From Eisenbergiella porci (lineage in GTDB: Bacteria; Bacillota; Clostridia; Lachnospirales; Lachnospiraceae), in assembly GCF_009696275.1 (NCBI RefSeq), contig NZ_VUMI01000005.1:1-64000 (forward strand): DNA of 64,000 nt. The letters are read 5' to 3'. This document shows positions 2,097-23,004 of this stretch, in pieces (the stretch's first letter is position 1; each line of letters begins with the position of its first letter). The notes beneath the pieces are model-generated. The model made no database searches. It was not told the origin of the DNA and worked only from the letters and a program-made list of their open reading frames with translations. The position numbers were made by a program, and so were the translations under genes.

Positions 2097-2505
2097 ATCT
2101 GTCATCTGTCATCCCGCTTAAATTCTGAAGCAACCTATCTTCATGAAATTCTTTTAATACCACCGCAATAACTACATAAAAATTGTAGCAAATATGTGTT
2201 GCGCATATAATTTGTATAAAATAAATAAATACTATGGAAAATACAGCAACGTAAATATATAATAAATACATAAATAAACAGATCAGACTATTAAGATAGG
2301 CCTATCGCATAGTCAAAATGATTATTTTACACAAACAATAAGCAGAATTGATAGTCAATTTAAAAATTACATTCAGGGATTGACAACGCGGAAAAGGAAC
2401 AGTATTGATACAGTAATACTGCATTAATAAAATAAAAGCTGTTAATTACCGTATTTGTCACCTGCCGGAACTGTAAAACAAATTTCGAGATAGGAGGAAA
2501 TGGTT
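2097..2505 (+). promoter_or_regulatory. AT-rich control region of sugar ABC operon
   Basis: About 400 bp with no gene. It holds several strong dyads. One is GATAGGCCTATC (2295-2306), a perfect palindrome nested in GACTAT/ATAGTC arms (2286-2314). Another is AATTGA-TAG-TCAATT (2346-2360). A third is AGTATT-N8-AATACT (2401-2420). A TTGACA at 2380-2385 stands 17 bp from a poor -10 (TATTGA, 2403-2408), overlapping the third dyad. A good -35 with a poor -10 and flanking palindromes suggests a regulated promoter for the importer operon. Confidence 0.5.
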
Positions 2506-3888
2506 ATGAAGAGACTGGGCGCTGTATTATTATCAGCAGCTATGGTTCTGTCGCTTACGGCATGCGGAGGAAATACGACAACTGCTCCGGCTGCTTCGGA
2601 ACCCGCCAAGGAACCTGCCAAAGAGGCTGCTTCCGAAGCAGGGAACGATGAGGCTGCCCCCGCTGCAAGCGCGTCTGCAGAAGGGACAGACATCAGCGGA
2701 AGTACACTGGAGGTAGCGGTTACCTATACAGGTGATCAGGCAACCACTTTCCAGGGACTGGTTAAAAAGTTCGAAGAAGAATATGGATGTACTGTGAATA
2801 TCGCGGAATACGGCACAGATTACGAAAACACCTTAAAGACACGTATGGCGGCTAATGAGCTTCCCGACGTATTCCAGACACACGGATGGTCAATCCTCCG
2901 TTATAAAGAGTATCTGATGGATCTGAAGGATCAGCCCTGGGTTTCCGACTATGATGATTCCGCACTGGGCGTTATCCAGGACGACGACGGCGCAATCTAT
3001 GTTCTGATGATTTCTGAACTGATTAACGGAACACTGGTTAACACCGACGTATGTGATGCTGCAGGCGTTGCTCCGTATACAATCCATACATGGGATGATT
3101 TCACAGCGGCATGTGAAAAGATCAAAGCCTCCGGAACCACTCCCATCTGCGTATTATCTAATCCCGGACTGCTGGCGAACTTTGCAGGAACCTTTGTAAG
3201 CTACGACGGCGAAATGTTCCAGGATTCCGCAGCAATGCTTGACGGCTCCTATGACTGGCAGCATTACAAAGAATCCCTGATTAAATACATGTCCGGCTGG
3301 ATTGAATCAGGCTATTACTTCGATGATATCCTTACACTGGTTGATACCGACCTGACCGAGCGTTTTGCAGCCGGCAAGGGCGCCTTCTGCCTCGGCAACG
3401 ACCCTTCCGTAATGCTTACCTGCCTTACCCTGAATCCTGACGCCAACTTTATTTTCCTTCCTTCCTTTGCATCCAAAGAAGGCGGAAAAGAGCATGTGGG
3501 CATCGGCGAAGGCGATACCTTCGGTATCTGGAAAGACACTAAGAATGCTGATGCGGCAAAAGTTTTCTTAGAGTACATGGCTCGCCCTGAAGTGGCAAAA
3601 GAAATGAATGCCGCAACCGGTAAAATCAGCTGTCTGAAATCCACCATGGCTATTGACGACGGCTACGGCCTGAAGGTATTCCAGGATATGAAGGAAAAAT
3701 GCGCTGACTGCGATATCTTCTATGAAAACCTTTGGGACAGACAGTATATGCCTTCCGGAATGTGGCCGATATTCGGAAATGCAAGCAATATGCTTTTCGA
3801 TAACCACAGTGAAAAAGGACAGGATGAAGTGATTGAATATCTGCTTGAGAACTACCAGGATTTATATGAAGCAGCTAAAGAGGGCTGA
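2506..3888 (+). CDS. Sugar ABC transporter substrate-binding lipoprotein
   Basis: Extracellular solute-binding protein of family 1 (CUT1 importers). ATG 2506 is preferred over ATG 2500 because the TAGGAGGA site leaves a proper seven-base gap only to 2506. A lipoprotein signal peptide ends in the lipobox LTAC with the acylated Cys at residue 20. An Ala/Pro/Glu-rich tether (about 24-65) leads into the two-lobed binding domain, for a total of 460 residues. It would capture a mono- or oligosaccharide outside the membrane and deliver it to the two permeases that follow. No ATPase is encoded nearby, which is common for CUT1 systems that share an MsmX-type ATPase. The sugar cannot be read from sequence; the neighbouring GH43, GH172 and isomerase genes suggest a pentose or deoxyhexose glycan. 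Confidence 0.9.
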   Translation: MKRLGAVLLSAAMVLSLTACGGNTTTAPAASEPAKEPAKEAASEAGNDEAAPAASASAEGTDISGSTLEVAVTYTGDQATTFQGLVKKFEEEYGCTVNIAEYGTDYENTLKTRMAANELPDVFQTHGWSILRYKEYLMDLKDQPWVSDYDDSALGVIQDDDGAIYVLMISELINGTLVNTDVCDAAGVAPYTIHTWDDFTAACEKIKASGTTPICVLSNPGLLANFAGTFVSYDGEMFQDSAAMLDGSYDWQHYKESLIKYMSGWIESGYYFDDILTLVDTDLTERFAAGKGAFCLGNDPSVMLTCLTLNPDANFIFLPSFASKEGGKEHVGIGEGDTFGIWKDTKNADAAKVFLEYMARPEVAKEMNAATGKISCLKSTMAIDDGYGLKVFQDMKEKCADCDIFYENLWDRQYMPSGMWPIFGNASNMLFDNHSEKGQDEVIEYLLENYQDLYEAAKEG

Positions 3889-3912
3889 TATAACTGATTA
3901 AACTAAAACGAT

Positions 3913-3937
3913 GGTGGGGTGGCAATGCCATCTCACC
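3913..3937 (+). promoter_or_regulatory. Intercistronic stem-loop
   Basis: GGTGGGGTGGC (3913-3923) pairs with GCCATCTCACC (3927-3937) through a three-base loop, with two G-U pairs and no following T-run. Such hairpins between a binding protein and its permeases commonly stabilise the upstream mRNA and so raise binding-protein expression. That role is inference here. Confidence 0.55.
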
Positions 3938-3962
3938 AGTTTTAATATAAGGGGGTCATACT

Positions 3963-4832
3963 TTGAAGAAAAGAAAATGGATATATCTTTCCCTGACTAT
4001 TCCGGCATTGGCTCTGATGATACTGTTCATAGCGGCGCCGCTTGTTAATGCGGTCAGAATCTCTTTTTTTAAATGGAATGGATATTCCCAGAACATGCGC
4101 TGGTATGGTCTGAAAAATTTTGTAAATCTTTTTACGGATAATCTGTTCTGGCGCGCGACGCTGAATACAATGATCTACGGCTTTGGTTCCACCTTTTTCC
4201 AGAATGTGTGCGGCCTTGCTGCGGCGCTGTTCCTGAATAACAAATTCAAAGGCAGGAACGGGGTCAGGGTAATTCTGTATATGCCTATCATGATTTCCGC
4301 GTTCATCATGGGCCAGATCCTTTACTACTTTGTACAGGCGGAGGGCGGTGTTTTCAATGAGCTTTTGGGAATCATCGGAATCTCCCCCATATATTGGATG
4401 AAAACCGGCCTCTCCTCAACGCTGATGATTATGCTTGCCAACTCCTGGCAGTACATGGGGCTTTGTATGATTATCTATCTGGCAGGACTGCAGAATATCC
4501 CTTCCATGTATAAGGAAGCCGCCAGGCTGGACGGCGCCGGCAAAATGAAGGAATTCATTTATGTGACGCTGCCTTTGCTGATTCCGTCCATTACCACAGC
4601 GGTTGTAACCAACTTAATCGGCGGTTTCAAGCTGTTTGACGCCATCGTGGCCATGTCCAACGGCGGACCGAACAGGAAGTCCATGTCCCTGTCATTCTAC
4701 ATATCCCAGCTTTATTTTAACGATGAAAAAGCAGGCTATGCATCTGCCGTGGGCATTATGACATTCTTTATCATTATGATAATCGCCCTGCCGGTAAATG
4801 CATATCTGCGCAAGAAGGAGGTTGAGTATTGA
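3963..4832 (+). CDS. Sugar ABC transporter permease (MalF/UgpA type)
   Basis: A 289-residue inner-membrane permease with six predicted transmembrane helices. Its cytoplasmic EAA loop (EAARLDGAG, about residues 180-190) docks the shared ATPase. Translation appears to start at TTG 3963, with AAGGGGG seven bases upstream. It follows the binding-protein gene in the same transcription unit and overlaps the next permease at its stop codon. Length and EAA motif match the first permease of CUT1 oligosaccharide importers. Confidence 0.9.
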   Translation: MKKRKWIYLSLTIPALALMILFIAAPLVNAVRISFFKWNGYSQNMRWYGLKNFVNLFTDNLFWRATLNTMIYGFGSTFFQNVCGLAAALFLNNKFKGRNGVRVILYMPIMISAFIMGQILYYFVQAEGGVFNELLGIIGISPIYWMKTGLSSTLMIMLANSWQYMGLCMIIYLAGLQNIPSMYKEAARLDGAGKMKEFIYVTLPLLIPSITTAVVTNLIGGFKLFDAIVAMSNGGPNRKSMSLSFYISQLYFNDEKAGYASAVGIMTFFIIMIIALPVNAYLRKKEVEY

Positions 4833-5683
4833 TGGAAGGAAAGCTGAAAAAATCCAAAGGACCAAATACCCACTCCGTATGGTGGTGCTATATTGTAGCC
4901 ATCCTGTTGATTCTGATTTATCTGCTCCCTATTTATATCATGCTGAACCTGTCCTTCAGGACGCTGCAGGATCTGGGCACCAAGCTGTCCCTGCCGGCCG
5001 CCTGGAATTTTGGAAACTATGTTGAGGTATTCAAAAGCGGTGATCTATGGCTAGGCTTTAAGAATTCCATCATTCTGGTGGTGGAAACCGTCACTCTGGA
5101 AATCGTCCTGTCCGCGCTTGCCGCCTACGGGCTTGCAAGAAGCAGCGGCAGGCTCGCGGAATCCATCCGTAATATCAACATGGGCATCATGATGATACCC
5201 AGCGTTGCCCTGCTGGTCGGCACCTACGGACTGATGGTAAAATTCCATATGACCAACACGCTTTACGGACTGGCTCTTCTGTCTGCGGCGGGAGGCATCC
5301 CCGGCACCATGTTTATGTATGTTAACTTTGTTGTTTCCATTCCCACGGCGCTGGACGAGGCTGCAGCCATTGACGGAGCCGGAGTGCTCAGGACCTTCAC
5401 GCAGATCATCATGCCCCAGCTGAAGGCGGTTACGGTTACAAGAATTATCATGTCCGCCACCGGCTGCTGGAATAACTATCTGATGCCCATGTATTTGCTG
5501 CAGGATAAATCCAAATTTACAATTATCCTGGTAATCAAATCAGCCTTCAACAGAACGAACGGCGTCGGCAATCTGCCGAAGGCCTGTGCTACCTGTGCGC
5601 TGGGCCTTCTGCCGGTCATCCTGCTGTATCTGTTCCTGCAGAAATATATTATTGAAGGACAGATTGACAGTTCTGTAAAATAG
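4832..5683 (+). CDS. Sugar ABC transporter permease (MalG/UgpE type)
   Basis: Second CUT1 permease, 283 residues and six predicted membrane helices, with EAA loop EAAAIDGAG at about residues 175-185. The start at ATG 4832 overlaps the preceding stop (TGATG), and AAGGAGG lies at 4815-4821. A TTG at 4829 is an alternative giving one more residue. It forms the heterodimeric channel with the preceding gene product. The GH43 gene follows after 49 bp, so the imported ligand is probably an oligosaccharide that GH43 trims inside the cell. Confidence 0.9.
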   Translation: MEGKLKKSKGPNTHSVWWCYIVAILLILIYLLPIYIMLNLSFRTLQDLGTKLSLPAAWNFGNYVEVFKSGDLWLGFKNSIILVVETVTLEIVLSALAAYGLARSSGRLAESIRNINMGIMMIPSVALLVGTYGLMVKFHMTNTLYGLALLSAAGGIPGTMFMYVNFVVSIPTALDEAAAIDGAGVLRTFTQIIMPQLKAVTVTRIIMSATGCWNNYLMPMYLLQDKSKFTIILVIKSAFNRTNGVGNLPKACATCALGLLPVILLYLFLQKYIIEGQIDSSVK

Positions 5684-5732: not shown

Positions 5733-6668
5733 ATGAAGCTTTATAAACGTAAACCAGATGACAGGGCTCCTCTCGGCCAGCCGGACCCCTATATGATCAA
5801 AGCCGGCGACGGCAGATATTATATCTACGTCACAGGGAATCCCGGCCCCCAGCTATTTTGCAGCGACAGTCTGCTTGACGGCTGGGAATACAAGGGCTGC
5901 TGCCTGGAAGCGCCGGGGCAGAAGAATTGCTGGGCGCCCTGCGTGATCGAAATTGACGGTAAATATTATATGTATTATTCAAGCATGGATGAAGACAGCG
6001 ATGATGAGCATGGCCAGACCATGAGAGTCGCGGTTGCTGACTGCCCCGGGGGACCGTTCCGGTTTGTGAAGAACCTTCTCCCTCCGTTCTCCATCGATCC
6101 CCATATGGTAGTTACCCCTTCAGGAATGTATTTATTTTACTGTGTAAACGAATACGAGGCCCAGCGTGTAGGAACGGTAGTAATGTGCGATAAAATGACA
6201 GATCCGTTTACCATGGAAGGAAAACCGGTGTGCGTCATCCGTCCCACCCTGGATGAAGAGATTTATCAGCGCGACCGTTTCAAAAAGGGAGAGCACTGGC
6301 ATACCATAGAGGGCGCTTTTTATTTCAATCAAGGGAATACGCATTATCTGATGTACTCCGGCGCCTGCCACCAGAATCCTACATATTTTATCGGCTACAG
6401 CGTGGCGCACGGGGATCCGGACGCGGATTTACGAACGCTGGACTGGAAAAAATTTCCTGACGATACCACCTACGCGCCGCTTCTTTCCAAAAATGATTTT
6501 GTGGAAGGGATGGGGCATAACAGCGTGATCTTTGATAACGGAACATGCTATATCGTGTATCACGGGCGTGATATTGGAGACATAAATCTGCCGGAGGATG
6601 CCCGGTCTGCCAGAATTGATGAAATGAAAATAGACGGAGATGTCCTGTCCGTAGAAGTTACAAGATAA
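5733..6668 (+). CDS. Glycoside hydrolase family 43
   Basis: A 311-residue single-domain enzyme of the five-bladed beta-propeller GH43 type. The three catalytic acids are visible: Asp18 in QPDPYM (general base), Asp122 in SIDPHM (pKa modulator) and Glu193 in TIEGAF (general acid). GH43 enzymes act as arabinofuranosidases, xylosidases, arabinanases or galactosidases by inversion; which applies here is not decidable. There is no signal peptide, so it works in the cytoplasm on imported oligosaccharides. It sits directly behind the importer genes with its own GGAAGGA ribosome site and ends at a shared bidirectional terminator. Confidence 0.88.
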   Translation: MKLYKRKPDDRAPLGQPDPYMIKAGDGRYYIYVTGNPGPQLFCSDSLLDGWEYKGCCLEAPGQKNCWAPCVIEIDGKYYMYYSSMDEDSDDEHGQTMRVAVADCPGGPFRFVKNLLPPFSIDPHMVVTPSGMYLFYCVNEYEAQRVGTVVMCDKMTDPFTMEGKPVCVIRPTLDEEIYQRDRFKKGEHWHTIEGAFYFNQGNTHYLMYSGACHQNPTYFIGYSVAHGDPDADLRTLDWKKFPDDTTYAPLLSKNDFVEGMGHNSVIFDNGTCYIVYHGRDIGDINLPEDARSARIDEMKIDGDVLSVEVTR

Positions 6669-6686: not shown

Positions 6687-6720
6687 AAAAGGACCGGCAG
6701 GTTTTGCCGGTCCTTTTGTT
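6687..6720. terminator. Bidirectional terminator
   Basis: AAAAGGACCGGCA (6687-6699) and TGCCGGTCCTTTT (6705-6717) form a perfect 13-bp stem with A/T tracts on both sides. It serves the GH43 operon on the plus strand and the DUF624 gene converging from the minus strand. Confidence 0.9.
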
Positions 6721-7349
6721 CACTTTGAAAGCTCTTCTAACGGATCCTCTTCCTGGTAATTGATATGTTTTTTGAAAACAGGCTCCTGCAGGTAGGAGGA
6801 GAGGAAGAAGAAACCGGCAGGCACGATAAACAGCAACGGCGGATAATAGATGGAAAGTTCAACTGCAAACAGAAACAGGCAGAGCAGCAGAAAATTTTTT
6901 ACAAGATGACCGAAAGTAAGTCTGACCAGCAGGGTAAACAGCTCCTGTCTTCTGAGGCGGAATCTTCCCATCAGCGCAAACCCGTGTATCTGAACCGTCA
7001 GGCACACAAGAATGGAAAAGAGGGAGAAAAAAACATACATACCTGCAATCATGCTGTCCGGCCTCTGCCAGCACACATAGCCGGTGACGCCGAACAGGGC
7101 GTAGAGGAACAGCAGAAGGGCGGTAAAAGGAAGCGTCTGCCTCAGGTTTTCCTTAAAGGAATCCCGGAAGGTGGCAAAGGCATATCCCCGGTTCTGCCGC
7201 AGGACACGGATTGAGGTATGGTACAGGGCGGCAGAGGCGGCCCCGATCGTGAGCACGGGCAGGCTGCATACACACCACAGCACGCTTAAGATGACCATAT
7301 CCGCCGCTTTATTCAATATTGTTACCAGAGTGCTTTCCTGATTAAACAT
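6720..7349 (-). CDS. DUF624/YesL-like membrane protein
   Basis: A 209-residue integral membrane protein with about five hydrophobic helices. The opening segment, ending in SLPVLTIGAA (about residues 20-38), is characteristic of the DUF624 (YesL) family. These small membrane proteins are repeatedly found beside CUT1 sugar importers and glycosidase genes in Firmicutes, including the yes/rhi region of Bacillus subtilis, but have no proven biochemical role. It lies 20 bp downstream of the ArsR-type regulator on the same strand, so the two are probably cotranscribed and belong to the sugar locus. Confidence 0.75.
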   Translation of the reverse strand: MFNQESTLVTILNKAADMVILSVLWCVCSLPVLTIGAASAALYHTSIRVLRQNRGYAFATFRDSFKENLRQTLPFTALLLFLYALFGVTGYVCWQRPDSMIAGMYVFFSLFSILVCLTVQIHGFALMGRFRLRRQELFTLLVRLTFGHLVKNFLLLCLFLFAVELSIYYPPLLFIVPAGFFFLSSYLQEPVFKKHINYQEEDPLEELSK

Positions 7350-7369: not shown

Positions 7370-8323
7370 TCAGCCGTTTTCGTATTCTACTTTCATTACA
7401 ATGTCCTGGGCATAGTCGCCGAAATGCTTCCCGAACAGATTCATGCCCCCTACATGCTGGCTGTCACTGTCCACTTTCAGGATGAAGGAGAAGAAATAAT
7501 CATTCAGCAGCCCCAGGCTTTCAATGGTTTCATCCGATATTTTCTGATTGTCCATGTAGCAGCCGCTGTGGGTGACATAAATTTTCTTATATTCACCGAA
7601 CTGTGTGTTGGATTCACTCCACCAGCTGGGATTATAGATTCCCTTCCTTCCGCCATAATCCCCTTTGGTAAGGAAGGTTACGATTTTCTTATGGTTCAGC
7701 TCAAAGGTGATATCGGACGGCCAGTTATTGTTATAGCCGGGCGCCTCGGAGCATACCTCAAAGGAAAACTCAATCTGGGAGACTTTGTCCTGAAGCAGGG
7801 AGTAGTTGGAAAACTGGTATTCCAGAAAGCCCCTGGTAAACCACAGCAGGGAAGCATCTGTGCGATCCGGGGAATAAAAGCCATAGGGGCTGTCTTCATA
7901 ATAAAGATAGGAAACAGCGGAGGCAATGCCGCATGGCGGAGAAATTTCGCAGTTGCAGTAGTGCCCGATTGGCATATTGACAAAGGCCGGCGGCTTCCGT
8001 GTGATTTTGTTCACATGGGCAAATACATCCAGGGAAACATTGGCCGTCTTAATGCCGCACAGCTTCTGTGAGCCCCGCATTCCAGGCTTGGGCACCACCG
8101 TAATCAGATTGGCCTCTTTCAGTGTCTTGATGTGCAGGCACATGGAAGACATGGGCAGATAGAAGGCCTCCGCCAGTTCGCTGATGGTCATGGCTTTCGC
8201 CACCAGGCATTTGAGAATTTCCAGACGGGTTTCAGAAGAAAGGGCCCGGCATATCCTGGCGGTAGTTTCCGTGTCCGATAGATCCATAACGATGTCTTTT
8301 TTATTTTTGACTTCTTCGTACAT
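7370..8323 (-). CDS. ArsR-type winged-helix regulator with ligand domain
   Basis: The start is placed at the ATG at 8323, preceded by AAGGAG and a six-base gap; an upstream in-frame ATG at 8338 lacks a site. Residues about 20-85 form an ArsR/SmtB-type winged helix (ALSSETRLEILKCL, then TISELAEAFYLPMSSMCLHI). The remaining 230 residues contain several Cys, Trp and Tyr residues and resemble no metal site, so they are presumably a sugar-sensing or oligomerisation domain. Position between the importer operon and the divergent aldolase-isomerase operon makes it the likely local regulator. Effector and DNA site are unknown. Confidence 0.75.
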   Translation of the reverse strand: MYEEVKNKKDIVMDLSDTETTARICRALSSETRLEILKCLVAKAMTISELAEAFYLPMSSMCLHIKTLKEANLITVVPKPGMRGSQKLCGIKTANVSLDVFAHVNKITRKPPAFVNMPIGHYCNCEISPPCGIASAVSYLYYEDSPYGFYSPDRTDASLLWFTRGFLEYQFSNYSLLQDKVSQIEFSFEVCSEAPGYNNNWPSDITFELNHKKIVTFLTKGDYGGRKGIYNPSWWSESNTQFGEYKKIYVTHSGCYMDNQKISDETIESLGLLNDYFFSFILKVDSDSQHVGGMNLFGKHFGDYAQDIVMKVEYENG

Positions 8324-8662
8324 AGGATACTCCTTCAATAATGGGTGAAACGTCAGCCCTGCGATGGAAGCCGTCTTTCGGGCCGTATATGTTATGTGAT
8401 TATAAACAAAGTATAGACAATCACTGTCAAAAAAACAATAGATAGATACATAAAAAATGTATTAAATGAATGCATTGCATATAAAATGTATATTATTAAT
8501 TTATTATATTGAATTTTAATGTGTAATTTATATAATCAAGATAGGTATAGGTACATAATTTTTGGATGTATATTTCAGGAAAACAGCTGTGTCGGGGCGT
8601 GAATCCTGCCATCGGCCTCCCTGATTTCAATGTCTGCTAAAGCAGACAGATCGGAGCACTTT
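8324..8662. promoter_or_regulatory. Divergent control region, AT-rich
   Basis: About 340 bp with no gene. On the minus strand TTGACA (8430-8425) and TATAAT (8404-8399) are spaced by 20 bp, a long spacer typical of activator-dependent promoters, and would drive the regulator gene. The middle (8440-8560) is very AT-rich. It holds the dyad ATGCA-T-TGCAT (8470-8480) and a GATAGGTATAGG tract (8540-8551) that partly recalls the GATAGG palindrome before the importer operon. Confidence 0.45.
8631..8648. promoter_or_regulatory. Perfect 18-bp dyad before sulfatase remnant
   Basis: TGTCTGCT (8631-8638) and AGCAGACA (8641-8648) form a perfect dyad with a two-base centre, placed just upstream of the GGAG ribosome site. 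The same octamer pair recurs in the hairpin at 20679-20733. It may be an operator or an RNA hairpin that controls translation. Confidence 0.45.
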
Positions 8663-9446
8663 ATGAATATTTTGTGGATTTGTACGGAGCAGCAGCGGTT
8701 CGATACACTGGGCTGCACGGGAAACGAATGGGTTCATACCCCGAATCTGGACAGACTTGCCTCCGAAGGGGTGTTGTTTGAAAACGCTTATGCACAAAGC
8801 CCCGTATGCGCGCCCAGCAGGGGAAGCTTCCTTACCGGCCGTTATCCCAGGACCTGCGGCCCCAGGCAGAACGGGCAGGATATTGATGCAAAGGAACGGC
8901 TGCTTCCCAGAATTCTTGCCGATAACGGCTATTACTGCGGCCTGGCAGGCAAGCTTCACCTGTCGGCCTGCCACGATAATACAGGAAGGCTGATGGAACC
9001 CCGCATTGACGATGGCTATCATTTTTTCCAATGGTCCCATCATCCGTAGCCGCACCACGGTACGAACTGGCCCGCCAATGCCTATAACCAGTTCCTGATG
9101 CAAAACGGCAGGGATTATCTGACGCCGGACCGAGAGGACTGCCCCTATGTCCAAACCGGCGTGGAGGAAGAATGACACCAGACTGCCTGGTGCGTCAACG
9201 AAGCCATACACTTTATGGAAAGCGCACGGATTTTTAAGGAAGGAATGGATGTTCTCCCTGAACTGCTTCAATCCCCATCATCCCTTTGATCCTCCGGCAG
9301 AGTATCTGGAGAGATACCTGAACAGACTGGATGAAATTCCGCTGCCCAATTACGAAGAGGGGGAGCTTAATAACAAGCCGGTTTTCCAGCAGAAGGATCA
9401 TGAAGGAGCCTATGATACGAAGGACTATTATGCTTATGAAAAACAC
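8663..9446 (+). pseudogene. Degraded sulfatase
   Basis: The remnant starts at ATG 8663 with GGAG upstream and reads as a type I sulfatase. It has the metal-binding D in the opening segment (CTEQQRFDTLGC) and the maturation motif C-x-P-S-R in PVCAPSRGSFLTGR. The cysteine means the formylglycine would be made by an oxygen-independent maturase. The frame is broken by TAG at 9047 and TGA at about 9170, and shifts frame near 9240. It resumes as FSLNCFNPHHPFDPP, a typical sulfatase segment, and then runs into a structured repeat with no C-terminal domain. The intact enzyme would be about 450-550 residues. Its place at the head of the aldolase operon suggests the ancestral substrate was sulfated. 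Confidence 0.85.
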
Positions 9447-9642: not shown

Positions 9643-10488
9643 ATGGGACTTATGGATGTAAAAAGTATCTTGAAAATGGCGGATGAAAACCGGTTTGCGG
9701 CGGCGGCCATCGATGTATTCGATTACCAGTCCGCGCACTGGGTGGTGGAGGCCGCGGAAAGGGAAAAGATGCCCGTACTGCTGATGTTTTACCCGGATAT
9801 GAGCTGGTTCATTCCATTCAGCACTATGGCGGCCATAGCGGTGGATCTTGCCAGGCAGGCAAAGGTGCCGGTAGGCGTCCATCTGGATCACGGCAAATCC
9901 TATGAGATAGCGGTGGGCGGCATTGCGGCAGGCTTTCCTTCCATTATGTATGACGGCTCCGCGCGTCCCTTTGAAGAGAACCTGTCGGTTACGGCAAGCG
10001 TGGTAAAATGCGCCCATCTGCTGGGAGTGGATGTGGAGGCAGAGCTGGGAACCGTGGGACAGGGCAGCAGAAAAGAGGATTTCTGCAACGAGGAGCTTTA
10101 TACAAAGCCTGAAATGGCAAGGGATTTTGTTGCAGGGACGGGCGTGGATTCCCTCGCCGTTGCCATAGGCAACAGCCATGGACATTATGTCTGCGAGCCG
10201 CACCTGGATATCCGCAGGCTGGATGAAATCAATAAAACCATCGATACCCCTCTGGTCCTTCACGGCGGCTCGGGCATTCCGGCAGAGCAGATGATCGAAT
10301 CCGTAAAATATGGAATCAATAAGGTAAATATTGGAACCGAATTTTTTGAAAAGTGTAAAAACTGTATTGCAGCGCATATGGGAGAGGACGGATTTGTCCT
10401 GGAGCATTACAAAGAAGCAGGGGAAGAGGTAATCGATTTTGTCAGAGGACGGATTGCCCGGATTAATCCTTACCATTTCTCATTATAG
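9643..10488 (+). CDS. Class II ketose-(bis)phosphate aldolase
   Basis: A 281-residue TIM-barrel enzyme of the class II fructose/tagatose-bisphosphate aldolase family (FbaA/KbaY/GatY). It has the zinc ligands HLDHG (80-84), EAELGTVG (about 130-137), GNSHGHY (about 177-183) and LHGGSG (about 208-213). GGAGGG precedes ATG 9643. It would cleave a ketose 1-phosphate or 1,6-bisphosphate to dihydroxyacetone phosphate and an aldehyde. It is followed after 11 bp by a PfkB kinase. With the isomerase and reductase downstream it gives a complete isomerise-phosphorylate-cleave-reduce route. Substrate specificity is not visible in sequence; it is not of the FucA/AraD fold usually used for fuculose 1-phosphate. 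Confidence 0.88.
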   Translation: MGLMDVKSILKMADENRFAAAAIDVFDYQSAHWVVEAAEREKMPVLLMFYPDMSWFIPFSTMAAIAVDLARQAKVPVGVHLDHGKSYEIAVGGIAAGFPSIMYDGSARPFEENLSVTASVVKCAHLLGVDVEAELGTVGQGSRKEDFCNEELYTKPEMARDFVAGTGVDSLAVAIGNSHGHYVCEPHLDIRRLDEINKTIDTPLVLHGGSGIPAEQMIESVKYGINKVNIGTEFFEKCKNCIAAHMGEDGFVLEHYKEAGEEVIDFVRGRIARINPYHFSL

Positions 10489-10499
10489 GGAGGGAAACT

Positions 10500-11450
10500 A
10501 TGGATGTTGTGGGAATCGGGATCCCTTACTATGATATGGTGATCAACGTGAGCAAAATGCCCGGGCTGGACGGTGCGGCGGGCGCCAACGAAGCTTTTTA
10601 CCAGGGGGGAGGCAAGGTGGCGACCGCAATGGCCGCTGCCGCCAGATTGGGGAGAAGCGCAGGCATGATGGCCAAGGTAGGCGAAAACCACAGGGGCCAG
10701 TTTATCATCAATGATTTCCGCTACAATGGTGTGGACACCTCCGCCATCATCGTGGATGCCCCGGGGACCTCCAGTCCCTTCTGCCTGTCTCTTTCCGAGG
10801 AGGAGCACAAAACCAGGATTTTTATCGGCAAGGAGGGCACCGCAGGAGAACTGCTGCCGGAGGAAATCGATTATGAATATCTGGGCAAAGCAAAATACCT
10901 TCATTTGGAAAACGGCAGACCTGCCAGCGCGGCGGCAGCTCTTTTTGCCAGGGAGCACGGCATTGTAACGGTGATGGATGCGGATAATTATCAGGAGGGG
11001 ATTGTGAAGCTGCTTCCCTGTCTGGATGTTTTTATCGCCTCGGAATTTTTCTACCGGGATATGTTCGGGAATCTGCCCTATGAGGAGGGCTGCAGGAAGC
11101 TGCTGGAGGCCGGCCCGTCTACGGCGATAGTTACGCTGGGAAGCAGGGGAAGCGTGGGGATGACGGCGCAGGATGGTTTTTTCCGGACGGAAAGCTTCCA
11201 GGTGCCGGTCAGGGATACCACGGGCGCCGGGGATGTTTTTCATGGAGCCTATATCGTGGGGCTGCTGGAAGGGATGGACGCGCCGGAATGCGCCAGGTTT
11301 GCCAGCGCGGTTTCCGCCATAAAATGCACCTGCTTCGGAGGAAGAACCGGGATTCCCAACCGGGAGACGGTGCAAAGGTTCCTGGAAACAGGCGAAATCG
11401 ACCGGACGGAGGCACAGCGCAGACTGGCTTATTACAGAAACAATTTATAA
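10500..11450 (+). CDS. PfkB-family sugar kinase
   Basis: A 316-residue ribokinase/PfkB-fold kinase. The N-terminal GGGKVATAMAAAARLG segment matches the first PfkB signature. The C-terminal DTTGAGDVFHGAY (from Asp239) contains the anion-hole residues and the catalytic base Asp245. It would transfer the ATP gamma-phosphate to a sugar hydroxyl. In this operon the ketose produced by the fucose-isomerase-like enzyme is the obvious acceptor, giving the substrate of the aldolase encoded just upstream. Family members phosphorylate fructose 1-phosphate, tagatose 6-phosphate, ribose, adenosine and others, so the assignment to a ketose is contextual. Confidence 0.88.
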   Translation: MDVVGIGIPYYDMVINVSKMPGLDGAAGANEAFYQGGGKVATAMAAAARLGRSAGMMAKVGENHRGQFIINDFRYNGVDTSAIIVDAPGTSSPFCLSLSEEEHKTRIFIGKEGTAGELLPEEIDYEYLGKAKYLHLENGRPASAAAALFAREHGIVTVMDADNYQEGIVKLLPCLDVFIASEFFYRDMFGNLPYEEGCRKLLEAGPSTAIVTLGSRGSVGMTAQDGFFRTESFQVPVRDTTGAGDVFHGAYIVGLLEGMDAPECARFASAVSAIKCTCFGGRTGIPNRETVQRFLETGEIDRTEAQRRLAYYRNNL

Positions 11451-11452
11451 AC

Positions 11453-11486
11453 GGAGGACGTGTCCATACACGGCACGCCGTCCTCC
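11453..11486 (+). promoter_or_regulatory. Intercistronic hairpin
   Basis: GGAGGACG (11453-11460) pairs perfectly with CGTCCTCC (11479-11486) across an 18-nt loop. It lies between the kinase stop and the ribosome site of the reductase gene and has no T-run. It may act as an mRNA-stability or processing element. Confidence 0.5.
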
Positions 11487-11507
11487 AGCAGAATGGAGGG
11501 TTATTTT

Positions 11508-12485
11508 ATGGGAATGGTGTCATTGGGTAAAACAAAGCTTCAGGTATCCGAAATCATCCAGGGTACCTGGTTCATGGGAAAGGATTACTGGGGAGGGGCC
11601 GAGGACAGGGAATCCGCAGAGGCGATACAATGCGCGCTGGAACACGGAATCAATACCTTTGATACAGCTTATATTTACGGAAAGGGGCATGCGGAGGAGC
11701 TGCTCGGGGAAGCGCTCCGCGGTGTGCGGGATAAATGTGTTATCATTACAAAGCTCTGGAAAACAGATATGGCGCGGGAAAGGGTGCAGCCAGGGCTGGA
11801 AGAGGCCATGCGGCGGCTGCAGACGGATTATATAGATGTCTTCTTCATCCATTATCCTTCGGAAACCGTGCCGATCGAAGAAACCATGACAGAGCTTATG
11901 CGTCTGAAGGCCGAAGGAAAAATCGGAGCCATCGGCGTATCCAATTTCAGCCTGGAACAGATGAAGGAGGCGCTGCGTTTCGGGGAGATTGATGTGATAC
12001 AGCCCTGCTACAGCCTTCTCTGGCGCTTTATTGACAGGGATATCCTGCCCTTTGCCATTGAGAACAAAATCGCCGTAATCCCTTATTCGCCTCTGGGACA
12101 GGGTATTCTTACCGGCTCCATGCAGCCGGGCCATACCTTCAGGGAAGGGGATTCCAGACAGAATACGCCGCTGTTTGCACCGGAAAACTTTGAACGCGCG
12201 CTGGCCGTAACCGAACGGGTGAAGGAGGCCGCCGCCAGATATGGCAAAACACCGGCGCAGACCGCCATCCGCTGGGTAATGCAGTGTGAAGGCATGACGG
12301 CGCCGATTGTGGGCGCCAGGAACAGGAAGCAGGTAAATGACAACGCAGGCGCATGCGGATGGGAGCTTTCCGCAGAGGATATGAAGTATCTGGATGAGTA
12401 CAGCCGGGACTTCGCTTACAGCCTGCCGAATTATAAAACGTTGTTTGACAAAACTATTGTATGGTGCAGGCGTAACGGTATATGA
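11508..12485 (+). CDS. Aldo/keto reductase
   Basis: The start is ATG 11508, with GGAGGG seven bases upstream; an earlier in-frame GTG at 11460 is part of a hairpin. The 325-residue (alpha/beta)8 protein shows the AKR tetrad: Asp52 and Tyr57 in DTAYIYGKG, Lys in VIITKLWK (about 85) and His in FFIHYPSE (about 115). The NADPH-binding segment lies near the C-terminus (IVGARNRKQV). AKRs reduce aldehydes and ketones. In this operon it could reduce the aldehyde released by aldol cleavage (lactaldehyde or glycolaldehyde), replacing the FucO-type iron alcohol dehydrogenase. Alternatively it might oxidise or reduce the free sugar. Confidence 0.85.
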   Translation: MGMVSLGKTKLQVSEIIQGTWFMGKDYWGGAEDRESAEAIQCALEHGINTFDTAYIYGKGHAEELLGEALRGVRDKCVIITKLWKTDMARERVQPGLEEAMRRLQTDYIDVFFIHYPSETVPIEETMTELMRLKAEGKIGAIGVSNFSLEQMKEALRFGEIDVIQPCYSLLWRFIDRDILPFAIENKIAVIPYSPLGQGILTGSMQPGHTFREGDSRQNTPLFAPENFERALAVTERVKEAAARYGKTPAQTAIRWVMQCEGMTAPIVGARNRKQVNDNAGACGWELSAEDMKYLDEYSRDFAYSLPNYKTLFDKTIVWCRRNGI

Positions 12486-12554
12486 AACGGACAGTTACCG
12501 GTTACTTACAGACATATTTCACATGCCCGTTGGGACGGGCAGATGGGAGCAGCT

Positions 12555-13970
12555 ATGAAAAATCTGGACAAACAGCTGAAAATAGGCCTGGTTCCTACCC
12601 GAAGAGAGGCCTTTGCCAATGAAACTACCACCCGCCGGAAGGAAGCCGTCGTTAAACGCTTCCGGGAGCTGGCGGAAGAACTGGATTTTGAAATCGTTAC
12701 TATTGAGGACATTAATGAAGAAGGCCTGCTGATGACATATCACGATGTGAAAGCGGCTTACAAAAAGCTGACGGCTGCCGGCGTGGACGCCCTGATCTTC
12801 CCCCACTGTAATTTCGGCCAGGAGGAGGCTGTGGGCAGGCTGGCGAAGGATATGAATCTGCCGGTTCTGATCTGGGGACCCAGGGACGGCTGCCCCAACG
12901 GCCTGGAATGGCGGCCCACCGGCCTGGAATGGCGGCCCACCGACAGCCAGTGCGGTATGTTCGCCACCACCAAGCTGCTCATGCATTACGGCGTAACTTT
13001 TTCCTACATAGAAAACTGTGCAATTGACAGTGATATCCTGAAAAAAGAGCTGGCTGATTTTCTGGCCGCGGCCAATGTGGTAAAGGCCTTCCGCGCCCTG
13101 CGCATCGCCAGGATCAGCAGCCGCCCCAAGGAATTTTTAAGCGTCATGGTCAATGAGGCGGAGCTTCTGGAAAAATACGATATCGAAATCGTGCCCGGGG
13201 AGCCGACGGTGATTCTGGACAGGGTGGACCGGATACTGGCAGAGGACAGGGAACGCATGGAGGCGCTTTTGCAGGAGCTGGTGGACGCAGGGCTTGATAT
13301 CAGCGCGCTGGGAGAAAAAAGATATCCTCTGGCCGCCATTGAGCTGGCGCTGATGGACTTTGCCGAAGCAAACGACTGCAATGCCCTTTCCTGTGAATGC
13401 TGGAACCTGTTCCGCAAAAAATACGGTGTATCCCCCTGCTTTATCCTGGGAGATTTGAATGACCGCGGCCTGCCTGCCGCCTGTGAAAACGACGTCCACG
13501 CGGCAATCACCTCCGTAATGGCGGTAGCCGCCGCAAGATACAAAACGCCCTCCTTTGTGGCGGATCTTACGATAAGGCATCCCGAAAATGACAATGCGGA
13601 GCTTTTGTGGCACTGCGGTTCCTTTGCCAAGAAGCTGAAGAAAGCGGATGCAAACGGACGGATTGTGAAAGAGGGGAAGGGCTTTTATGAGCTGGAGGGC
13701 GGTCCGGTCACCGTACTGCGTTTTGACGGGAACCATGGAGAGTACTATATGTTCGCAGGAGAAGCCAAAGGCGTGGACGGGCCGGTTACCAACGGGAATT
13801 ATCTGTGGATCGAAACGGACAACTGGGTAAAATGGGAGAAAAAATTTATTTTCGGGCCTTATATCCATCATGTGGTCGGCATCCATGGAAGCTATTCCCA
13901 TATCATCCAGGAAGCCTGCCGTTATCTGGGAATCCGGATTGATCTGCCGGATATGCCGAACCGGTATTGA
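12555..13970 (+). CDS. L-fucose/D-arabinose isomerase-like protein
   Basis: ATG 12555 with GGGAG upstream gives 471 residues; ATG 12543 is a poorer alternative. It belongs to the fucose/arabinose isomerase superfamily. Two Rossmann-like N-terminal domains carry segments such as DALIFPHCNFGQEEAVG, and the C-terminal domain carries the presumed metal ligands Glu in LSCECW, Asp in CENDVHAA and His in VGIHGSYSH. Members interconvert aldoses and ketoses (L-fucose/L-fuculose, D-arabinose/D-ribulose), often with Mn2+, and many homologues are unassigned. A seven-residue tandem duplication (GLEWRPT twice) lies in the substrate-facing loop between GPRDG and DSQCG and may alter or abolish activity. It probably feeds the PfkB kinase. 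Confidence 0.8.
   Translation: MKNLDKQLKIGLVPTRREAFANETTTRRKEAVVKRFRELAEELDFEIVTIEDINEEGLLMTYHDVKAAYKKLTAAGVDALIFPHCNFGQEEAVGRLAKDMNLPVLIWGPRDGCPNGLEWRPTGLEWRPTDSQCGMFATTKLLMHYGVTFSYIENCAIDSDILKKELADFLAAANVVKAFRALRIARISSRPKEFLSVMVNEAELLEKYDIEIVPGEPTVILDRVDRILAEDRERMEALLQELVDAGLDISALGEKRYPLAAIELALMDFAEANDCNALSCECWNLFRKKYGVSPCFILGDLNDRGLPAACENDVHAAITSVMAVAAARYKTPSFVADLTIRHPENDNAELLWHCGSFAKKLKKADANGRIVKEGKGFYELEGGPVTVLRFDGNHGEYYMFAGEAKGVDGPVTNGNYLWIETDNWVKWEKKFIFGPYIHHVVGIHGSYSHIIQEACRYLGIRIDLPDMPNRY
12900..12941 (+). repeat. 21-bp in-frame tandem duplication
   Basis: The 21-base unit at 12900-12920 is repeated without change at 12921-12941 inside the isomerase-like gene, adding GLEWRPT a second time. 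Identity of the two copies points to a very recent replication-slippage event. Confidence 0.9.
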
Positions 13971-14045: not shown

Positions 14046-15119
14046 ATGAACGAAAAACATTCCCTGCTGGCAGGTCTGACCTGCCTGGCAGACGCAAAAA
14101 CAAGATCCATCAGCCCGGAAAATTTCCATGGGGAAAAGGGAAAGGGAGGCATGGCTGTGGAAGGAACGGGAAAGGAGTGCGCAAGAGAGCTGGGACAGGG
14201 CTGGAAGATTTCCCCTTCCGTTGAAATTCCCGGTAAGGAAACCCTGGTCCTAGCTGACATCCAGGGCAGCGGCATAATCCAGCACATCTGGCTGACCTGC
14301 CCCCATGAAGACTGGCGTTCTTTAGTGCTTCGTTTTTACTGGGATGCGGAGGAGACGCCCTCCATAGAGGTGCCCCTGGGAGATTTCTTCTGCATGGGCT
14401 GGTGCGAAACAGGGCTTCTGCAGTCGCTTCCTGTCTGCGTTAATCCCAGTGGCGGGATGAACTGTTACTGGCAGATGCCTTTCCGGACAGGTGCAAAAAT
14501 CACGCTGGAAAACCTGACGGATAAAAAAAGTGTGATCTACTATCAGATCACCTATGCGGAAACAGCCGTAGAAGAGGATACTCCCTATCTTCACGCCCAG
14601 TTCAGGAGGGATAATCCGCTGGAATATATGAAAAACCATGTGATTGTCGATCGGGCCGAGGGCAAAGGGCAGTATGTGGGAACCTATCTTGCCTGGGGCG
14701 TAAACAGCAACCGCTGGTGGGGCGAGGGTGAAATCAAGTTTTTCCTTGACGGGGACACTGATTTTCCTACCATATGCGGAACCGGGACAGAGGACTATAT
14801 CGGCGGCGCCTGGAACTTCGAATATCCAAGAGGAGAATACTGCCGTTTCTCCACACCTTATTCCGGGCTGCATCAGATTATCAGGCCCGACGGCCTGTAT
14901 TGCTCCCAGCAGCGTTTTGGCATGTACCGTTTTCATCTGACGGATCCTATCCGGTTCGATACGGATCTGCATGTGGAAATCCAGGCCCTTGGCTGGAGGA
15001 GCGAGGGCAGATATCTTCCCCTGCAGGACGATATCGCTTCCGTAGGCTACTGGTATCAGCTGGAGCCGCACAAACCCGTCCCGCCGCTGCCGGATGCCAA
15101 CGCGCTGGAAGTGAATTAA
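14046..15119 (+). CDS. GH172 (DUF2961) glycoside hydrolase
   Basis: A 357-residue DUF2961 protein, now glycoside hydrolase family 172. Recognisable stretches include GSGIIQHIWLT (about 77-88), LGDFFCMGW (about 115-123), NCYWQMPF (about 139-146) and the acid-rich GTGTEDYIGGAW (about 245-256), which contains the conserved catalytic glutamates of the double jelly-roll hexamer. Known GH172 activities are difructose dianhydride I synthase/hydrolase and exo-alpha-D-arabinofuranosidase. It has no signal peptide, so it is intracellular. It lies between the isomerase-like gene and a GH116-like remnant; both GH172 and GH116 have D-arabinofuranosidase members, which makes D-arabinofuranosides a plausible substrate for the locus. 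Confidence 0.87.
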   Translation: MNEKHSLLAGLTCLADAKTRSISPENFHGEKGKGGMAVEGTGKECARELGQGWKISPSVEIPGKETLVLADIQGSGIIQHIWLTCPHEDWRSLVLRFYWDAEETPSIEVPLGDFFCMGWCETGLLQSLPVCVNPSGGMNCYWQMPFRTGAKITLENLTDKKSVIYYQITYAETAVEEDTPYLHAQFRRDNPLEYMKNHVIVDRAEGKGQYVGTYLAWGVNSNRWWGEGEIKFFLDGDTDFPTICGTGTEDYIGGAWNFEYPRGEYCRFSTPYSGLHQIIRPDGLYCSQQRFGMYRFHLTDPIRFDTDLHVEIQALGWRSEGRYLPLQDDIASVGYWYQLEPHKPVPPLPDANALEVN

Positions 15120-15131
15120 ACAGGAAAAGAG

Positions 15132-16163
15132 GTGAGCACGATTAAAACTGACACTTACAATACTTTTACCTATAAAAAGGACCGGCAGCGAGCCATATCC
15201 TTTCCCGTGGGAGGGCTGGGAAGCGGCAGTATCGGTATTGCGGGAAATGGCTGCCTGATCGACTGGCAGGTTTATAACCGCCCCGCCATGGGAACAAGAA
15301 ACGGATACAGCCATTTTGCCGTGAAAGCGCAGGCGGGTGATGAGCTGCTGGATGCCAGGGTACTGGTTTCGGATCTGGAAAAGCCCTATCTGGGACAGGT
15401 GGACGAAAGAACCATGCTCGGCATGCCGCATTTCCGGGAGCTGGTATTTGAGGGGAAATACCCTATGGCGGAGCTTTCCTTCCTGGATGAGAGATTCCCT
15501 GGAAGGGTTACCGTGCGTTACTATAATCCGTTCATCCCTCTCAATGACAGGGATTCCAGCATTCCGGCGTTATTTGCAGACATTCTGGTGGAGAATACCA
15601 CAGATCGCCCCATTACCTATACCACGGCGGGAATCATAACAAATCCGTGCCAAAGCAGCTTTACCCGCAACCGCTTCCGGGAAGGAAACGGCATCCGCGG
15701 AATCCATTTCACCACGGAAGAGATCGATAAAGGGGATGTTTCCTACAGTGATTTTACGCTTGCCGCAGATTCGGAGGCCGTCTGCCAGGAATACTGGTTC
15801 CGCGGGAACTGGCGGGATCATGTGGAAACCTACTGGCGGGAATTTGCCTCGGCAAAGCCTCTCGAAAACCGCCGTTATGAAAACGGGAAAAAGGATTACA
15901 AGGATACGGGCATGCTCTGTATCTCTAAGGAGACTGCGCCGGGAGAAATACAGGAATTCCATTACGTGCTGACCTGGAACGTGCCTAACTGCAGCAACTA
16001 CTGGAGCGGTCTGGATATCAGCACCTCCAATATTCATTATGATGTATGTGACCGGACGCCCTGGAAGTACACCAGTACCGCAGGCCTTCCTTATCGGAAC
16101 CGGAAGCTGAATGGCAGGGAATGCTATACAGTGTATTTTCCGGTAAATACTGTCTGCCACTGA
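15132..16163 (+). pseudogene. Truncated GH116 (GBA2-type) glycosidase
   Basis: The 343 residues match the N-terminal beta-sandwich domain of GH116/GBA2-type enzymes. They include FPVGGLGSGSIGIAGNG (about 18-34) and DWQVYNRP (about 38-45), then the YPMAELSF and SSIPALFADILVENTTD segments, and a closing LTWNVPNCSNYW. The whole (alpha/alpha)6 catalytic domain, normally another 450-500 residues with the catalytic Glu and Asp, is absent. The frame simply stops at 16163, and unrelated DNA follows. Start is GTG 15132 with AGGA upstream. GH116 includes beta-glucosidases, beta-xylosidases and exo-beta-D-arabinofuranosidases. This copy cannot be catalytically active. Confidence 0.8.
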
Positions 16164-22173: not shown

Positions 22174-23004
22174 TCATGAGCGGAAAGAACGGCCTTTCCC
22201 TTCATGATAAATCTGGCTGGGTGTTTTATACCCCAGACTTTGATGTGGGCGTTCATTGTTATAAAACTCCATATATTCTCGGGTCCCTTTTCGTGCTTCC
22301 CGGGGATAACTGTAATCTTTAAGATAAATATCCTCATATTTCAGACTTCGCCAAAATCGTTCTATGAAGATATTGTCATATGCGCGTCCACGGTGATCCA
22401 TACTGATTTTGGAACCTGCCTCCAGAAAGAGTTCTGTATATTTTGGGCTGGTAAAATGGCTTCCCTGATCACTGTTCATGATTTCAGGCACAGAGCCGTC
22501 AAGTGCCTTTGGGCAGGTATCCAGAACAAATTTGATTTCCAGAGTGTCATCTATCTCCCATGCCAGGACATACCGGGAATACCAGTCTATAATGGCAGTG
22601 AAATAAAGCCAGCTCTTCTGTATCGGAATATAAGTAATATCAATACTCCAAACATGATCCGGAAAGGCAGCCTGTATCCCATTGAGAAGATAGGGATATA
22701 CTTTATTGGCAGGGTTCGCTTTACTGGTGTTTTGCCTGGGGTAAACGGCTTGTATCCCCATTTCCTGCATTCTGGAAAGCACTGTTTTTTTATCTACATG
22801 AAAACCATAATAACTGTCCAGCCATGCTGTGATACGGCGATATCCAAATTCAGGATGCTTTGTGTAGGTTATATCAATCAGGCGGTTAAGCTTCAGATCC
22901 CATTCAGAAGAAGGGCGCGGCTTATAATACAGGGAAGTGCAGTTCAGACTCAACATTTCAGCCTGGGTGGATATTGAAAAAACTGGGTCAGTAAAATCAA
23001 CCAT
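22174..23004 (-). CDS. IS3-family transposase OrfB
   Basis: A 276-residue integrase-core transposase. The N-terminal HTH_21-like segment (HPEFGYRRITAWL, about 55-67) precedes the DDE catalytic core: Asp in WSIDITY (about 121), Asp in NSDQGSHF (about 182) and Glu in FIERFWRSLKYE (about 218). The C-terminal ERPHQSLGYKTPSQ segment is diagnostic of IS3/IS150-type OrfB. OrfA, which supplies the DNA-binding leucine-zipper half through a programmed frameshift, is absent upstream. The protein may thus be non-functional even though its frame is open. Confidence 0.88.
   Translation of the reverse strand: MVDFTDPVFSISTQAEMLSLNCTSLYYKPRPSSEWDLKLNRLIDITYTKHPEFGYRRITAWLDSYYGFHVDKKTVLSRMQEMGIQAVYPRQNTSKANPANKVYPYLLNGIQAAFPDHVWSIDITYIPIQKSWLYFTAIIDWYSRYVLAWEIDDTLEIKFVLDTCPKALDGSVPEIMNSDQGSHFTSPKYTELFLEAGSKISMDHRGRAYDNIFIERFWRSLKYEDIYLKDYSYPREARKGTREYMEFYNNERPHQSLGYKTPSQIYHEGKGRSFRS

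Follow-up and report, generated by a model that had tools for sequence, protein, structure and literature searches.

The stretch of DNA analysed here (the window) comprises positions 1 to 64,000 of contig NZ_VUMI01000005.1 (assembly GCF_009696275.1) from the 6.1 Mb genome of Eisenbergiella porci. Its positions 9643-13970 hold four co-directional genes for a class II aldolase, a PfkB-family kinase, an aldo/keto reductase and an isomerase. On balance, we lean towards the view that these genes are part of an operon for the use of D-arabinofuranosides, equipped with its own ketose-1-phosphate pathway. The chances seem about even that they exemplify a widespread and undescribed ketose-1-phosphate module, in which an isomerase of the AraA/FucI fold, a PfkB-type 1-kinase, an FbaA-type aldolase and an optional aldo/keto reductase process non-sulfonated sugars in Clostridia and beyond; in gut bacteria of the Eisenbergiella type this module would be dedicated to D-arabinose from D-arabinofuranosides and ferment this sugar to ethylene glycol with enzymes that are not orthologues of the textbook ones. 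Among the open-licence PubMed Central papers searched, no description seems to exist of such a set acting on a non-sulfonated sugar, nor of its association with D-arabinofuranosidases.

The families and positions that the original prediction had given for the four adjacent genes are confirmed by the open frames, by Pfam searches (run on ten open reading frames of the window) and by a predicted fold. All four lie on the + strand, separated by gaps of 11 bp and then, with the exact figure set by the choice of start codons, of roughly 55 and 60 bp. The aldolase (9643-10488) is assigned by its sequence to the class II FbaA/KbaY-like enzymes, with a Pfam match to F_bP_aldolase (PF01116) of 259 bits and the stretches LDHG, GNSHGHY and LHGGSG, which we take to be the metal-binding histidine motifs of the FbaA type. 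The kinase (10500-11450; PF00294, 147 bits) has as its closest solved structure the sulfofructose kinase YihV (7ag6, 102 bits). At the presumed sulfonate-binding residues of YihV, which we take to be K27, N109 and R138, it has A26, G110 and R140, i.e. two of the three are changed. The reductase (11508-12485; PF00248, 256 bits) and the isomerase (12555-13970) have probable starts at 11508 and 12555, as judged from ribosome-binding sites. Comparison of the four genes and the neighboring GH172 (glycoside hydrolase family 172) gene with the same-genus locus L171, and with L170 for all but the reductase, gave ratios of non-synonymous to synonymous divergence (dN/dS) of 0.035-0.079 at a dS of 1.1-1.7, which is near saturation. 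These ratios indicate that aldolase, kinase, reductase and isomerase are real genes, though as averages over the whole distance to L171 or L170 they are blind to recent functional loss.

The isomerase is the most divergent component. Its match to the Pfam model Fucose_iso_C is marginal (29.9 bits against a cut-off of 29.3), the FucI equivalog TIGR01089 (cut-off 850 bits) is not among its NCBIfam matches, and its sole match in that collection is the sulfoquinovose isomerase model NF048012, at 78.7 bits against a cut-off of 700; none of the 21 genomes and none of the 14 controls scanned has an NF048012 match above cut-off. A profile alignment with FucI (hhalign E-value 0.0084, probability 4.8%, N-terminal part only) was too weak to place it in the FucI family and was not used. 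The structural model (pLDDT 92.0, pTM 0.92) predicts an L-arabinose/L-fucose isomerase fold: in Foldseek searches L-arabinose isomerases reached query TM-scores of up to 0.84, and FucI and D-arabinose isomerases 0.75-0.78, at 12-15% identity. The structural likeness to FucI and D-arabinose isomerases that the original prediction had proposed to look for is therefore present, albeit exceeded by that to L-arabinose isomerases, and the protein is only distantly related to FucI. With the metal ligands of FucI assumed to be E337, D361 and H528, its E315, D341 and H443 fit by eye at the level of motifs and are invariant in 28 aligned rows, the profile alignment not extending to these positions.

The case for D-arabinose comes from two linked glycosidases. 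The GH172 (DUF2961) gene begins 75 bp beyond the isomerase (14046-15119, + strand; PF11175, 315 bits), and its product is a proposed exo-alpha-D-arabinofuranosidase: it matches the exo-alpha-D-arabinofuranosidase ExoMA1 (8ic8) with 468 bits, compared to 141 bits or less for the other solved GH172 structures, including 134 for a fructosidase. In ExoMA1, according to PMC10509167, Asn253 blocks fructofuranose, and the fructosidase has Gly299 in its place; the window enzyme has Asn257 aligned with Asn253. A fructofuranosidase activity is disfavoured by this Asn, and the GH172s found beside GH32-like genes (by eye, L144 and L148) carry Asp and Ser. The GH116 gene that follows (15132-16163, + strand; PF12215) is a remnant in the window, with its N-terminal domain only and no catalytic domain. 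Its full-length counterpart in L171 matches the exo-beta-D-arabinofuranosidase ExoMA2 with 377 bits (next entry 56) and keeps all four diagnostic residues of the exo-beta-D-arabinofuranosidases of GH116 subfamily 4, E431, H446, R483 and D557, counted by hand, with the numbering of the paper and that of the chain taken to differ by 4, as deduced from the residue types. Two residues, beside the nucleophile and the acid/base, are the key difference of such beta-D-arabinofuranose enzymes from beta-glucosidases according to PMC10509167. The combination of GH172 and GH116 speaks for substrates ending in alpha- and beta-D-arabinofuranosyl residues, and therefore for D-arabinose. The original prediction had named L-fucose or D-arabinose; the second of these gains support from the two glycosidases, while L-fucose as the main substrate is made less likely by a separate, true FucI elsewhere in the genome (990 bits, the only listed TIGR01089 match), next to which lies a kinase of FGGY type by eye. 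Fucosidase families are absent from the Pfam matches of the ten window frames, the only search made for them.

From the gene families, their linkage and phylogeny, the fold of the isomerase, the GH172 and GH116 residues and the purifying selection, all of which were computed, we infer the sugar, the place of its release and each of the following reactions. The ABC (ATP-binding cassette) transporter of the locus would import oligosaccharides, which would be trimmed inside the cell, GH172 removing alpha-D-arabinofuranosyl residues and GH116, in relatives with an intact copy, the beta-linked ones. The isomerase would then convert D-arabinose to D-ribulose, the kinase would phosphorylate this at O1, and the aldolase would cleave the resulting D-ribulose 1-phosphate to dihydroxyacetone phosphate (DHAP) and glycolaldehyde; where present, the reductase could act as an accessory glycolaldehyde reductase that forms ethylene glycol, thereby reoxidising NAD(P)H. 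Phosphorylation at O1 is proposed because an aldolase is present and because the nearest structure of the kinase is YihV, a ketose 1-kinase according to PMC9594981; phosphorylation at O5 would presumably make the aldolase needless. The gene families thus lend support to the earlier proposal of a route from aldose to ketose, ketose 1-phosphate and DHAP plus aldehyde by families other than FucK, FucA and FucO, and BLAST searches with FGGY kinase and FucA seed proteins gave no match in positions 1-24000 of the window.

Of 13 genomes scanned in the genus, seven, the source genome included, encode an isomerase at least 81% identical to that of the window, and in all seven the aldolase and kinase genes adjoin it. 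A close GH172 lies within 3 kb of the isomerase in five (the window and, at 81-88% identity, G299, G309, G302 and G304), and full-length GH116 is present in two (L170 and L171). In an eighth genome (G306) the module is gone, and an aldolase stub (residues 7-54) persists beside a GH172 of 82% identity, which shows the linkage to be old. In the isomerase scan the closest relatives with a name belong to the Lachnospiraceae, e.g. Candidatus Eisenbergiella intestinipullorum (L052, 80%).

A wider scan, in which the best 80 named loci were classified by the genes within 6 kb of the isomerase, showed both kinase and aldolase at 29 loci, with the reductase at 15 of these; the remaining loci had a transketolase (13), an FGGY kinase (13, three with a FucA-type aldolase), the aldolase only (5), the kinase only (2) or none of these (18). 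These counts are lower bounds owing to short contigs, the classes were assigned in a fixed order, such that L056 (under FGGY) and L098 (under transketolase) also have the kinase, and L050, L051 and L052 repeat G107, G300 and G302. In a midpoint-rooted isomerase tree of 81 rows (78 of the 80 loci, L064 and L126 being too short, plus the window and two distant isomerases), 28 of the 29 kinase-plus-aldolase rows, counting the window, fall in one group of 42 rows, together with none of the transketolase rows and one FGGY row (L056); the support of this branch, at 95/70, is not firm. When the window and the two distant isomerases are left aside, 27 of 41 rows in the group are kinase-plus-aldolase, compared to 1 of 37 outside it (Fisher p 1.7e-9, uncorrected for kinship). 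The kinase-plus-aldolase label changes 11 times on the tree, as against a mean of 23.9 for shuffled labels, with none of 500 shuffles as low; it is clustered, yet does not form one clean clade. The conserved co-occurrence of all four families, raised by the original prediction, thus holds across many genera for isomerase, kinase and aldolase, but not for the reductase. Plasmid records yielded nine matches to the isomerase, each below 60% identity and none informative.

The same isomerase family has a second set of partners, consisting of a transketolase, an FGGY kinase and a LacI-type regulator; paralogous isomerases with such a regulator, an FGGY kinase and a split transketolase were seen in L045 (from the source genome itself, contig C139), L047, L099, L100, L102 and L103. 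A small AllA-like protein (by eye) is encoded near the isomerase in L039, L040, L069, L081 and L101, placed like SqvB, the proposed sulfoquinovose ring-opening protein; the L039 copy has no Pfam match, and the protein is possibly a mutarotase of this pathway. Further, a protein of about 607-611 residues that matches no Pfam family is encoded beside the kinase at 7949-9769 of L037 and 3740-5572 of L034.

The unit to which the four genes belong is larger than 9643-13970: the same-genus loci share synteny for importer, GH43, regulator and sulfatase, and some of them also for GH172 and GH116. In the window the order is ABC importer, GH43, DUF624-like gene, ArsR-type gene, broken sulfatase, the four-gene set, GH172 and truncated GH116. 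The sugar importer (2500-5683, + strand), named by eye and by synteny with L031 and L171, comprises a binding protein (2500-3888) and two permeases (3963-4832 and 4829-5683). It is followed by the GH43 glycosidase (5733-6668, + strand; PF04616, 101 bits; best PDB entry 4qqs, 94.6 bits; 76-84% identity in same-genus loci) and the DUF624-like gene (6720-7349, named by eye), which adjoins the gene for an ArsR-type helix-turn-helix protein (7370-8338, - strand; HTH_20, 42.6 bits). This protein is presumably the regulator of the locus, and its position is conserved. The sulfatase (8630-9443, + strand), with a PF00884 match on its first piece, hints at sulfated material; the motif CAPSR is found in that piece and in the intact L171 copy. 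A few kb past the locus there is a transposase-like frame, of IS3 type by eye (22174-23004, minus strand).

The most serious alternative, which we consider doubtful, is that the same chemistry serves a different sugar, such as L-arabinose, D-xylose, D-galactose or a 6-deoxyhexose, with GH172 and GH116 being merely companions in the operon. A series of observations tells against D-arabinose and in part for this alternative. The closest fold of the isomerase is that of L-arabinose isomerase, and the operon contains a GH43 enzyme, L-arabinosides being frequent substrates of that family. In other genera GH2 or GH35/42-like genes are the neighbors of the trio (isomerase, kinase and aldolase), so that the sugar it handles may differ between clades. 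The original prediction is weakened by the fact that the isomerase family does not by its name determine the sugar: in PMC2873477 the FucI-family (PF02952) protein XylA-II is shown to be a D-xylose isomerase by knock-out and complementation, and in PMC9594981 the FucI-family SqvD acts on sulfoquinovose. D-arabinose could also be handled by the separate FucI of the genome, which among solved structures matches a D-arabinose isomerase best (862 bits). As for the glycosidases, GH172 is lacking at two of the seven same-genus loci, GH172s of 56-73% identity occur in other contexts, and eleven GH172 stretches from elsewhere have different neighbors. The specificity position is Asn in 8, Asp in 4, Ser in 1 and Gly in 1 of 14 distinct GH172 rows, with Asn found in other contexts as well. 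Outside the genus, a comparison of positions in the 26 genomes with a GH172 match placed no listed GH172 near a listed close isomerase, and the link is thus seen in one genus only. For the endo-D-arabinanase family GH183 (DUF4185), no match reached the cut-off in the 13 genus genomes or the 299 family genomes (three of the latter have weaker matches); as the control was silent too, this does not prove absence. The reductase, present at four of the seven same-genus loci (window, G309, G302 and G304) and without trace by tblastn in the stretches from G299, G107 and G300, is no fixed member either in the genus or among the wider kinase-plus-aldolase loci. What nevertheless speaks for D-arabinose is that both linked exo-enzymes have the residues described as specific for D-arabinofuranose and that GH172 stands at five of the seven same-genus loci.

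Compatible with the D-arabinofuranoside operon, though unlikely, is the possibility that the copy in the window is decaying and no longer active, the pathway being real in relatives. The copy is partly eroded, which also counts against the proposed function in this genome. Relative to L171, its sulfatase is split over two frames and ends at residue 264 of 490 (residues 5-264 by tblastn), its GH116 stops after about 311 of 856 residues (8-311 aligned), and it is without the major facilitator superfamily (MFS) transporter and the nucleoside-hydrolase-like gene. The latter, named by eye, lies at 13256-14224 of L171, between GH172 and GH116, and is unmatched in the window. Within the isomerase an exact 21-bp tandem duplication (12900-12941, + strand), absent from the aligned relatives, repeats GLEWRPT and adds seven residues in frame. 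On the other side, aldolase, kinase, reductase, isomerase and GH172 are all open with dN/dS of 0.08 or less, subject to the blindness to recent loss noted above, and the duplication maps to a loop that the model, confident elsewhere, predicts with low confidence.

We regard as improbable a D-ribulose 5-phosphate route, in which the kinase would act on O5, its product would enter the pentose phosphate pathway and the aldolase would serve another purpose. A D-arabinan cluster of Microbacterium is proposed to proceed via D-ribulose 5-phosphate (PMC10509167), ribokinase tops the uniformly weak NCBIfam matches of the kinase (121 bits against a cut-off of 300), and the lead of YihV over the ribokinase structures that come next is modest (102 against 86 bits or less). 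However, the nearest structure remains that of a ketose 1-kinase, and aldolase and kinase adjoin the isomerase at all seven same-genus loci and accompany it at 29 of the 80 wider loci. A sulfosugar pathway resembling sulfo-EMP (the sulfoglycolytic Embden-Meyerhof-Parnas pathway), with SqvD-, YihV- and SqiA-type enzymes, is highly improbable and was rejected: the single NCBIfam match of the isomerase, the closest structure of the kinase and a hybrid sulfo-EMP cluster of the same families (PMC9594981) are in its favor, but the isomerase stays well short of the 700 bits required for SqvD and two of the three presumed sulfonate-binding residues are Ala and Gly here. Also against it, GH31, the family to which the sulfoquinovosidase YihQ is taken here to belong, is unmatched among the ten window frames run on Pfam, beyond which no GH31 search was made.

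If the D-arabinofuranoside operon is real, a non-orthologous D-arabinose pathway would be added to those known, and a recurring three-gene module would gain a testable function. It would also suggest that D-arabinofuranosides, the form in which the sugar occurs in mycobacterial cell-wall arabinan, can be used by some gut Firmicutes, and that kinase and aldolase partners could tell the roles of fucose-isomerase-like proteins apart, correcting automatic annotation.

The classical fucose route employs the FGGY kinase FucK, the FucA/AraD aldolase and the iron alcohol dehydrogenase FucO. The proposed pathway passes through the same intermediates as this E. coli-type L-fucose/D-arabinose pathway (ketose, ketose 1-phosphate, DHAP plus aldehyde, and diol), but with PfkB, FbaA-type and aldo/keto reductase families in place of FucK, FucA and FucO and a distant relative in place of FucI. 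Caldicellulosiruptor saccharolyticus ferments D-arabinose to ethylene glycol, a capacity ascribed to the fucose pathway in PMC3637100. With sulfo-EMP and sulfo-EMP2 (SqvD/YihS, YihV/SqiK, YihT/SqiA, YihU) the locus shares the logic of isomerase, 1-kinase, DHAP aldolase and reductase; unlike them, its isomerase is not SqvD, its kinase departs from YihV at the presumed sulfonate-binding positions and its reductase is an aldo/keto reductase rather than YihU. The hybrid sulfo-EMP cluster has a FucI-family isomerase instead of YihS and an FbaA-family aldolase instead of YihT (PMC9594981), and by implication it retains the PfkB-family YihV. The original claim that no described pathway has exactly this set consequently stands for ordinary sugars but not for sulfosugars. 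The XylA-II/XylB system of Clostridium acetobutylicum likewise has a FucI-family (PF02952) isomerase in place of an unrelated one, yet pairs it with the xylulokinase XylB and D-xylulose 5-phosphate, and no aldolase. Finally, the D-arabinan locus of Microbacterium arabinogalactanolyticum differs in its GH183, which has no counterpart above cut-off here, and in proceeding via the proposed 5-phosphate rather than the 1-phosphate, but shares with the Eisenbergiella loci GH172 (ExoMA1) and GH116 (ExoMA2), an ABC importer and a putative D-arabinose isomerase and kinase.

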